Origin: an uncultured Spirochaetaceae bacterium
Lineage (GTDB): Bacteria; Spirochaetota; Spirochaetia; Sphaerochaetales; Sphaerochaetaceae
Reading direction: 5' to 3'
Assembly: GCA_944392935.1 (NCBI GenBank)
Contig: CALXYI010000044.1
Coordinates: 1-34,550, forward strand
DNA length: 34,550 nt
Part shown: piece after piece, positions 23,086 through 26,810 of the stretch
Layout of the letters: every line of letters begins with the position of its first letter
How positions within the stretch are numbered: the stretch's first letter is position 1
Notes under the pieces: model-generated
Seen by the model: only the letters and a program-made list of their open reading frames with translations
Told to the model about the DNA's origin: nothing
Database searches by the model: none
Translations under genes and position numbers: made by a program

Positions 23086-24342
23086 TCACTGGAAGAGCAG
23101 ATGGTAATCCGCAGCTATGTGCTTTGCCCTGGAAGGCCTCTGCATTATCTCATAGAGGCTTCTGGGAATGGCTATCTCCTCTCCGATCAGGGGCTCGACG
23201 GTATCGCTGAACTTCGCCGGATGGGCTGTTGAGACGACTATCGAATACGGTGAGGATACATGATCGCGCCTCACCCTCTCCCCGCATGCGGTGTGCGGGC
23301 AGATCACATAGCCTGACTCATCATGGACTTCCCTGATCGTCGCCTTTATCTCATCATCGGATACGGAGTAGGCGGAGACTGCGGAACGGAATGAATCATA
23401 ATCCGGGAAAAGCGCGAAGAGGCGCTCGATATTCGAAGGCGCGCCTACATCCATCGCATTCGCAAGCGTCCTTACCGAGGCCCTCGGCCTGTATTCCCCG
23501 CTCTCGAGGTAATCCGTGATGGGCCTGTTGGCATTCGCCGCAAGCACTATCTGCCGTATCGGAGCACCCATGGCCGCTGCCCAGTATGCACCGGTGGAGT
23601 TCCCGACATTGCCTGACGGGATGACGATGACAGGCTTCTCGCCATAGCGCAGCGCATAGAGCTCGGATGCATAGGCATAGTATGCCATCTGCGGAAGGAG
23701 GCGCCCGAGGTTTATCGAGTTGGCGCTGGAGAGACCGTGCAGCGATGGATCCATGAATGCCTCCTTCACCATCCTCTGGCAGTCATCGAACGAGCCCTCG
23801 ACCTCATAGCTTGAGACATTGCCGTCCCATCCTGTGAGCTGCAGCTCCTGCCTCTTCGATACCCTGCCCTCCGGGAAGAGCACCTTCACTGATATATGCT
23901 TCCTGCCATGGAATGCGGAAGCGACGGCGCCGCCGGTATCGCCGGAGGTCGCGACGAGTATCGTTATGTCCTCATTCCTCTTCTCAAGGAGCTTCTCCAT
24001 CGAGAAAGCGAGGAACCTTGCACCGAAATCCTTGAATGCGGCTGTCGGTCCGTAGTACAGCTCAAGCGTATCCTTGCCGCCGGCTGCATGGAACGGAACA
24101 GGGAACGAGAATGCCGAGCGGCAGATCTCCTCGAGATCCCCCTCGAGCTCATCACCCTCGAAGAAAGGAAGCATCGCGGTATACATCGCATACCATGCGC
24201 CCTTCGACAGCGTGAATGACGGAGAGAGCCGCGGAATCTCCCGTGGTATGAAGAGCCCGCCATCGGGGCAGAGACCCTTGAGGATAGCATCCGATGCCGT
24301 GAAAGGCGTTCCGCCGCCGTTCCTGGTAGAGATGAATTCCAT
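23086..24342 (-). CDS. thrC: Threonine synthase
   Basis: This 418-residue PLP enzyme converts O-phosphohomoserine to threonine. The cofactor lysine lies in PTAAFKDFGARF (K104). VATSGDTGGAVASAF and IPSGNVGNSTGAYWAA match the phosphate- and PLP-binding loops, and the N-terminal STRNGGGTPF is typical of the E. coli-type subgroup. AAGGAGG before ATG 24342 overlaps the thrA stop codon, so it is translated from the same mRNA. Homoserine kinase (thrB) is not in this cluster and must be elsewhere. Confidence 0.93.
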   Translation of the reverse strand: MEFISTRNGGGTPFTASDAILKGLCPDGGLFIPREIPRLSPSFTLSKGAWYAMYTAMLPFFEGDELEGDLEEICRSAFSFPVPFHAAGGKDTLELYYGPTAAFKDFGARFLAFSMEKLLEKRNEDITILVATSGDTGGAVASAFHGRKHISVKVLFPEGRVSKRQELQLTGWDGNVSSYEVEGSFDDCQRMVKEAFMDPSLHGLSSANSINLGRLLPQMAYYAYASELYALRYGEKPVIVIPSGNVGNSTGAYWAAAMGAPIRQIVLAANANRPITDYLESGEYRPRASVRTLANAMDVGAPSNIERLFALFPDYDSFRSAVSAYSVSDDEIKATIREVHDESGYVICPHTACGERVRRDHVSSPYSIVVSTAHPAKFSDTVEPLIGEEIAIPRSLYEIMQRPSRAKHIAADYHLLFQ

Positions 24343-24352
24343 GTTTTCCTCC

Positions 24353-26752
24353 TTATACCTTCGATCCGAGATATGCGCTCAGGCGCAGTATATCGGAGAA
24401 GACACCGCCTGCGGTGACATCAGGACCGGCACCTGGCCCTTTTATGACAAGCGGCTGCCTGTCGTATCTGACAGTGCGGAATGCTATGACGTTGTCGGTT
24501 CCCCTTGCCTGCGAGAATGGATGATCCTCCGGATATTCAGAAAGGGAGACAGAGCATACGCCTCCATCCACCTTGCCTACATAGCGGAGCCTCATCCCCC
24601 TCGACGCGGCATCGCGGTACATGGAGAGCATATGCTCATCCATCTCCGGAAGCCTCCTCATGAACTCATCGCTGGAGAGCTGCCGCATCTCAGGAGGGAA
24701 CAGAGGCTGGACATCTATATCCGACACCTCGGTATGATAGCCAAGCTCGCGGGCGAGGATGACTGTCTTGCGGGCCACATCCATCCCGGAAAGATCATCA
24801 CGGGGATCGGGTTCCGTATATCCGAGGGCCTTTGCCTTCTTCACGAGCTCAGAGAAAGGAACCGTGCCATCGTATTCGGAGAAGAGCCAGCACAGCGTTC
24901 CCGAGACCATTCCCTCTACGGTTATCACGCTGTCCCCTGTCTCGCGGAGATCGCGGAGGGTGCAGATGACAGGAAGCCCGGCTCCTACCGTAGTCTCATA
25001 GAGGAACTTGCGCCCTGTCCTCTTCGACTCTGCCATGAGCTCCGAGTAGTAGCTGTATGGGCCGGATCCTGCCTTCTTGTTCGGCGTCACTATATGGAAG
25101 CCCTCGCGTATGAACTTCGCATACTGCAGCGCACGAGCCTCCGATGAGGTGCAGTCCACGATCACGCGATGAGGATAGTACTGGGCGCCCACGTGGGAAA
25201 GGAAGATGCCCTCGTTGTATGCGACAGCATTCTCACGGAAGGAATCACGCCAGTTCTGCAGGTCTATACCCTCCTCCGAAAGGAGCATCTTCTTGGAAGT
25301 GGCTATGCCGCGGACGCGTATATCGAGATCGAAGCCACGGCGGAGCCTGTCGCTTTCCGAGGCAAGCTGGTCAAGGAGCGTACCCCCGATATTGCCAGGC
25401 CCGAAAAGCCCGATGGAGAGAGTCTGGGCGGAGAGGAAGAACGATGAATGGAGGGCCCTGAGGGCCTTTCCGCTCTCATCCTCCCGGATCACCGCGCTTA
25501 TGTTCCTCTCAGACGAGCCCTGTGCGATTGCCCTTACGTTGACTCCCGCACGGGCAAGCGAGGAGAAGAACTTTCCGGCGACACCCGGATGCCCCGGCAT
25601 CCCCTCACCGACGGCGGCCAGGATCGCAAGCCCGCTCTCTGCAGCTATCTCGGAAAGACCGCCGGAGGCTATCTCATGGGAGAACTCCGTGCGGAGGATC
25701 CTCTGCGCGGCAGATGACTCCCTCTGAGGCACGGCGAAGCATATCGAGAATTCGGATGAAGCCTGTGATATGAATATGACGGAAATGCCTTCATTGCGGA
25801 GCGCCGTGAAGAGGCGGGATGAGAATCCCGGGACTCCGGACATGCCGGAGCCTTCGACGTTGATCATCGCCACGGAACGCACCACGGAAAAGCCGCGGAC
25901 AGGGATGCCGCCGTCTGCAGCGGAAGCGGTCATGAGCGTACCGGGATCATCCATATCACCCCAGAAGCGGAGGGTGATCTCCACTCCTTTGTCCGCCGCT
26001 GGCTGGAACGACTGCGGATGGATTATGGGAGCACCGAAGAATGACAGCTCGGTTGCCTCCTTGTATGTAAGGTTCTTGATCACCGGAGCAGACGGGACAT
26101 CGCGCCTTGAGGCGGTGCAGAGCAGCGAACGGCTGTTCCAGAACGTAAGCGCTGCATCATGGTTCCTCGCGATAAGGGAGGCTGTATACTCGCTCTCCCC
26201 TTCCTTCCTTATCCTTCCGGAGGCATCCGGTGCGCTCTCTGCACGGAAGAGCTCCCCTGACACGAACACGGCGCCTTCAGGGAATGAGGCCGCTTCCACA
26301 GCCTCACGCGGCTGATAGACCGATGCAGGGATGCCGGATTCCGAGAAGAGTGTGCAGAGCATATCGGAGAGAAAGGAGCTCGTCATGCTGCCGAAATGCC
26401 TCACGGCAGCCTCAGGGACATCGTGCAGCAGCCAGAGGGCCCTGAGGATATCCTCGGCGATGGAGAACCTGGCATTCATCCGCTCCTGCACCTTCGATGG
26501 ATCTGAAAGGGTATTCTCTGCAAGCTCATTCCAGCTGCTCTGGCTTCTCTCGAGCTTCGACCAGAGCTTCTCGTCATTTCCTGCAGCTGCCTCCAGCAGC
26601 CCTGTGAGGGAAAGCTCCGGCGATGAGACCGGGGAAAGGACGAATATCTCTGTATCCTCACCATCATTCCTGTAGAGAGAAAGCAGCTTCCTCTGTCCGG
26701 TGCTGCTGCTGAGCATGGAGCCCTCAAGGGCATGGACGCGGATTCCGGGCAT
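24353..26752 (-). CDS. thrA: ThrA-like aspartokinase-homoserine dehydrogenase fusion with degenerate kinase domain
   Basis: This 799-residue protein aligns end to end with bifunctional ThrA (about 820 residues). Residues 1-285 correspond to aspartokinase, 290-440 to the paired ACT regulatory domains and 445-799 to homoserine dehydrogenase. The dehydrogenase is intact: GPGNIGG (451-457), TPNKKA, VGAGLPV, YTEPDPRDDLSGMDVARK and GAGPDVTAGGVFSD. The kinase is not: the KFGGTS stretch reads ALEGSM (8-13, catalytic Lys replaced by Ala), GRNGSD reads KEGESE (183-188), and TDVDGVYTCDP reads NSRSLLCTASR (206-216). Aspartokinase activity is therefore doubtful. Starts at GTG 26770 and ATG 26764 are in frame, but 26752 matches the family start and has GGAGGT just upstream; 26770 abuts a terminator tail. 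Confidence 0.9.
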   Translation of the reverse strand: MPGIRVHALEGSMLSSSTGQRKLLSLYRNDGEDTEIFVLSPVSSPELSLTGLLEAAAGNDEKLWSKLERSQSSWNELAENTLSDPSKVQERMNARFSIAEDILRALWLLHDVPEAAVRHFGSMTSSFLSDMLCTLFSESGIPASVYQPREAVEAASFPEGAVFVSGELFRAESAPDASGRIRKEGESEYTASLIARNHDAALTFWNSRSLLCTASRRDVPSAPVIKNLTYKEATELSFFGAPIIHPQSFQPAADKGVEITLRFWGDMDDPGTLMTASAADGGIPVRGFSVVRSVAMINVEGSGMSGVPGFSSRLFTALRNEGISVIFISQASSEFSICFAVPQRESSAAQRILRTEFSHEIASGGLSEIAAESGLAILAAVGEGMPGHPGVAGKFFSSLARAGVNVRAIAQGSSERNISAVIREDESGKALRALHSSFFLSAQTLSIGLFGPGNIGGTLLDQLASESDRLRRGFDLDIRVRGIATSKKMLLSEEGIDLQNWRDSFRENAVAYNEGIFLSHVGAQYYPHRVIVDCTSSEARALQYAKFIREGFHIVTPNKKAGSGPYSYYSELMAESKRTGRKFLYETTVGAGLPVICTLRDLRETGDSVITVEGMVSGTLCWLFSEYDGTVPFSELVKKAKALGYTEPDPRDDLSGMDVARKTVILARELGYHTEVSDIDVQPLFPPEMRQLSSDEFMRRLPEMDEHMLSMYRDAASRGMRLRYVGKVDGGVCSVSLSEYPEDHPFSQARGTDNVIAFRTVRYDRQPLVIKGPGAGPDVTAGGVFSDILRLSAYLGSKV

Positions 26753-26770
26753 CTTGACCTCCATATTCAC

Positions 26771-26792
26771 AAAAAGCTCCCTTTCGGGAGCT
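26771..26792 (-). terminator. Terminator-like hairpin between rpmB and thrA
   Basis: On the minus strand AGCTCCC pairs with GGGAGCT around the stable GAAA tetraloop, followed by a run of five T. It lies 20 bases after the rpmB stop codon and 18 bases before the thrA start at 26752. It may end rpmB transcripts and could also attenuate thrA if transcription starts at the TATAAT upstream of it. Confidence 0.78.
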
Positions 26793-26810
26793 CTTCCAGG
26801 TTTCCAATGG

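Follow-up and report, generated by a model that had tools for sequence, protein, structure and literature searches.

The window analysed here is a stretch of 34,550 nucleotides from an uncultured Spirochaetaceae bacterium, and it carries on its minus strand a gene for a fusion protein of the ThrA type, the textbook bifunctional, feedback-controlled enzyme of threonine synthesis, followed directly by thrC (Table 1). An alternative GTG start lies six codons upstream and would extend the ORF to 24353..26770; the ATG is preferred on account of a GGAGG just upstream and the agreement with relatives. The domains follow one another as AA_kinase, ACT, ACT, NAD_binding_3 and Homoserine_dh, the order by which ThrA (AK-HSD I) is defined, and the NCBIfam model for bifunctional ThrA (NF006959) is matched with a score of 791.5 against a cut-off of 726. 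The Pfam AA_kinase match is only partial (residues 124-265, model positions 75-230 of 234, E 2e-8), and since it begins at model position 75 the nucleotide-binding start goes unrecognised. Adjacency of thrA and thrC was seen in all 50 of the 50 loci of the genus that were checked. Between rpmB and thrA lies a terminator-like hairpin, GAGCTCCC-GAAA-GGGAGCTTTTT (26766-26795, minus strand), which lies just a few bases ahead of the ribosome-binding site of thrA and recurs in nearly all 17 relatives that were read; being so near this site, it leaves little space for a promoter, and a read-through or attenuation control of thrA-thrC is possible.

Table 1. Coordinates of the thrA-thrC locus and of the parts of the fusion protein
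Feature	Position	Strand	Basis
ThrA-type fusion gene, 799 aa from ATG 26752	24353..26752	minus	ORF list, Pfam, NCBIfam, alignment
Putative pseudokinase, N-terminal lobe, aa 1-180	26213..26752	minus	alignment; rate and dN/dS comparison
Putative pseudokinase, C-terminal part, aa 181-282	25907..26212	minus	alignment; rate and dN/dS comparison
Two ACT domains, aa 283-440	25433..25906	minus	Pfam ACT_9/ACT_7; conservation
Homoserine dehydrogenase, aa 441-799	24356..25432	minus	Pfam; NAD-binding GPGNIGG
thrC, threonine synthase, directly downstream of thrA	23086..24342	minus	NCBIfam; locus comparison

A first-pass annotation had read the aspartokinase motifs KFGGTS, GRNGSD and TDVDGVYTCDP as replaced by ALEGSM, KEGESE and NSRSLLCTASR, respectively, and all three replacements are borne out by an alignment of 140 sequences that includes E. 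coli ThrA, MetL and LysC. In LysC numbering, which is used throughout for the active site, the window protein has replacements at K8, G10, T45, E119, R198, G200, D202, T221, D222, Y227, P231 and K257 and retains G11, S39 and S201; K8, E119, R198, D202 and D222, needed for a complete aspartokinase active site, have become A, S, E, E and S, and K257 is lost in the change of FGAK to FGAP. In E. coli LysC, Glu119 and Arg198 are the salt-bridge partners of aspartate (PMC5481828). The same annotation had let a GEK segment turn into GSM, and here the loss of the substrate glutamate stands (it is Ser125 in the window protein) but the placement does not, the GEK of ThrA (126-128) aligning over TSS (124-126), with GSM three residues further upstream. 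No shifted alignment was found that restores the Lys or an Asp. Downstream of these losses, the C-terminal part of the kinase half conserves WN, P220 and EATELSFFGAP, and the earlier statement that EATELSFFG, both ACT domains and the dehydrogenase are well kept agrees with Pfam and with conservation.

The annotation had looked to related genomes for the same losses under purifying selection, and these are present in 109 distinct orthologues with open frames, drawn from the family of the window and from five further families in its class (f3, f4, f17, f22 and f25). The key aspartokinase residues, all replaced in the window protein, are replaced in nearly all of these relatives: the Lys column holds Ala in 90 of the 109 and Lys in six, all of one partly decayed family, and D202 has become Glu in 106. 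Within the family of the window, a search placed ThrA in 110 of 139 genomes, and every one that was read is without the active site. Such recurrence in 109 distinct genes rules out an assembly or sequencing fault. A second, intact thrA in the genome of the window was likewise considered and rejected, because the further copy on contig C49 (locus L069, 1-3271) is equally degenerate; it shares 72% identity with the window protein and, at the DNA level, 98.7% with a gene of another species (G027), and it is probably a contamination of the metagenome bin.

An intact ThrA site is found in families f24, f42, f45 and f5 (locus L130) of the class, and in Bacteroidota. In a FastTree phylogeny of the ACT and dehydrogenase part, 93 taxa of the degenerate form make up one clade (support 0.79) that adjoins the intact L130, and three long branches (L122-L124) fall outside it; IQ-TREE needs two changes, only one of which is forced by starred branches. 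Given these trees and a root on MetL, itself a very long branch, a single origin of the loss is likely, though unproven. The material can be arranged as a series of decay that leads from the intact site (f24, f42, f45, f5) through partial loss in f22, an intermediate in which the Lys is still present, and full loss in the window protein to the shrunken kinase halves of L119-L124.

In spite of the loss of catalytic residues, the gene bears the marks of constraint. In the degenerate group, the N lobe has a median dN/dS of 0.23, the C-terminal kinase part 0.15, the ACT domains 0.11 and the dehydrogenase 0.13; these values are rough, since dS approaches saturation in most pairs. A pseudogene is ruled out by this range of 0.11-0.23 together with an open frame of about 800 aa. 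The fold, too, appears to have been kept, as had been supposed. AlphaFold2 predicts the whole protein with a pLDDT of 84.7 and the kinase half with a pLDDT of 85.0 and a pTM of 0.85, and the best solved match to the predicted kinase half is the Thr-sensitive aspartokinase 3c1n (Z 24.7, rmsd 2.9 over 266 residues), with UMP kinases well below it at Z 16-17. For the predicted part 1-440, comprising kinase and ACT domains, the TM-score by target to Thr-sensitive aspartokinase is 0.76-0.84. Hence lost catalytic residues, a predicted fold that is kept and purifying selection, the three features by which a pseudoenzyme is recognised, are found together in this kinase half.

Rates of evolution bear on what the kinase half still does. 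With the dehydrogenase as reference, the N lobe changes 2.4-3.4 times as fast in the degenerate groups versus about 1.35 times in intact ThrA, and the C-terminal kinase part at 1.6-2.0 versus 0.6-0.75, while the relative rate of the ACT domains is similar in both. A faster kinase half beside unchanged ACT domains suggests that the catalytic constraint is gone and the structural constraint is kept; the faster N lobe is also compatible with passive decay. The kinase half might accordingly be pictured as a slowly eroding relic without a role of its own, which persists as it is translated before the dehydrogenase and whose abrupt deletion would destabilise the protein, a picture that suits the faster rate, the further shrinkage in three lineages and the gradation of decay, in which one family retains the Lys. 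We consider it unlikely, in view of a dN/dS well below 1, the full length of the half in 102 of the 109 distinct genes, a predicted fold of high confidence and a set of newly fixed residues. In the family of the window these are H7, W64, E68, W74, W107, P220, E188 in place of D202 and N206 in place of T221, with H7, E188, N206, W64, W74 and W107 at 95-100%.

The new residues admit another reading, in which the old active site or a new Trp-rich surface has been repurposed: it would bind another ligand or partner, such as the stand-alone LysC, and thereby exert a control that is absent from ordinary ThrA. Invariant residues at old catalytic positions (E188 and N206) and the new W64, E68, W74 and W107 on helices of the N lobe speak for such a domain, but a ligand or partner is not known, the residues may merely stabilise an empty pocket, and N206 is fixed only in the family of the window, so that we hold this, too, to be rather improbable. 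In its most specific form, His7, Glu188 and Asn206 together with the tryptophans at 64, 74 and 107 would have rebuilt the dead pocket into a ligand site or a docking face, again perhaps for LysC; this is a speculative proposal with a small chance of being right, and if true it would amount to a control circuit without known precedent among ThrA enzymes.

If the fusion protein no longer phosphorylates aspartate, this step has to come from elsewhere, and the separate intact aspartokinase that had been predicted is indeed present in the same genome, as a LysC on contig C37 with the motifs KFGGSS, RGGSD and WTDVSG. A further aspartokinase occurs in about 105 of the 110 family genomes that carry the degenerate ThrA, and all 30 of the 30 separate aspartokinase genes that were read have KFGG(S/T)S and RGGSD. 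For all that the score is above the cut-off of the NCBI equivalog model for bifunctional ThrA, it is exceedingly improbable that the window protein has remained an aspartokinase, albeit one with unusual residues, or that it is the product of a sequencing or assembly fault, with Lys, Glu, Arg and both Asp all lost, the same state in 109 distinct genes and a complete LysC in the same genome.

The remainder of the pathway is only partly accounted for. Canonical thrB (homoserine kinase) stays below the cut-off in 59 of 61 family genomes, exceeding it only in G082 and G084, and none of 61 genomes matched the homoserine kinase family TIGR02535; the ThrA-type dehydrogenase is present in most family genomes despite the missing canonical thrB. 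A weak homoserine kinase match in the genome of the window (contig C21, L163:1309-2118) resembles IspE, as judged by eye. The idea that the kinase half has itself turned into the missing homoserine kinase was rejected, as a domain stripped of every ATP-binding residue is unlikely to be a kinase of any sort. Aspartate-semialdehyde dehydrogenase (Asd) was not found in the genome of the window, where only ArgC was matched; an archaeal-type Asd, judged by sequence, is present in relatives, and its absence here is probably a gap in an assembly that is 94% complete. With canonical thrB and Asd not found, the steps leading from aspartate to threonine are thus accounted for only in part, though thrC adjoins thrA.

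The homoserine dehydrogenase half of the protein is intact in sequence. The dehydrogenase catalytic residues K559, E647, D653, D658 and K662 are all present in the window protein, and in the degenerate clade K559, D653, D658 and K662 are invariant and E647 is found in 108 of 109 genes. In the ACT domains, Q330 and Q411 correspond by alignment to E. coli Q351 and Q432, and presumably to the glutamines that bind threonine in the Arabidopsis enzyme. This presumed threonine-binding pair is kept in all 103 of the 103 genes of the clade whose kinase half is not shrunken. In six genes (L119-L124, from genera g46, g34 and g31) the N lobe is reduced to about half, at 81-104 residues. Five of the six, with N lobes of 88-104 residues, have lost one of the two glutamines (Q411 in L119-L121, Q330 in L123-L124), the dehydrogenase Lys being intact in these shrunken genes also. 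The losses fall in g46 and g31, two of the three shrunken lineages; L122 has a shrunken kinase half and retains both glutamines, so that the coupling between glutamines and N lobe is based on two lineages, a hint that the N lobe may be needed for the threonine response.

From these comparisons we infer that the kinase half has no kinase activity, and we consider it probable that it is a pseudoenzyme which serves as a structural and allosteric scaffold for the control of the dehydrogenase by threonine. Feedback through the pseudokinase is suggested by the ACT glutamines, kept where the kinase half is whole and lost in two of the three shrunken lineages. In a plausible scenario for this scaffold, an ancestral bifunctional ThrA of the spirochaete branch would have lost its aspartokinase activity, with a separate LysC supplying aspartyl phosphate, and the kinase half would have kept its fold, since the regulatory ACT domains and the oligomer both rest on it. 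Threonine bound at the ACT domains would then be relayed through the kinase scaffold to the homoserine dehydrogenase, so that the fusion would work as a threonine-controlled homoserine dehydrogenase.

Such a protein would be a natural, lineage-wide ThrA with one catalytic half switched off, in which the catalytic role of the kinase half can be separated from its allosteric role. It also points to a systematic error of annotation, given that proteins with the degenerate kinase exceed the cut-off for 'bifunctional aspartate kinase/homoserine dehydrogenase I', and metabolic models will consequently assign to the lineage a threonine-controlled aspartokinase that it would lack. No paper describing a pseudo-aspartokinase ThrA was found in a search confined to literature outside subscription.

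Compared with known systems, the window protein shares with ThrA of E. coli (b0002, NF006959) the domain order, the two ACT domains with both glutamines, an intact dehydrogenase and a nearby thrC, but it is without the catalytic and ATP-binding residues of aspartokinase, the step being supplied by a separate LysC. The closest solved structure of its kinase-ACT part is the Thr-sensitive aspartokinase of Methanocaldococcus jannaschii (3c1n, 3c1m, 2hmf), which unlike the reading preferred here is an active kinase and is not fused to a dehydrogenase. A parallel of function may be drawn with N-acetylglutamate synthase (ArgA/NAGS), whose amino acid kinase domain is described as the arginine-binding regulatory domain (PMC5146650); a 2012 paper cited there bears a title on restoring the ancestral N-acetylglutamate kinase activity of NAGS (PMC3370605). 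In both, a domain of amino-acid-kinase fold would be the regulatory part of another enzyme, but the enzyme pair is a different one, and in the window protein the effector is expected at the ACT domains and not at the kinase fold. By this analogy, the window protein may work in a manner similar to N-acetylglutamate synthase, although it stands outside that family.
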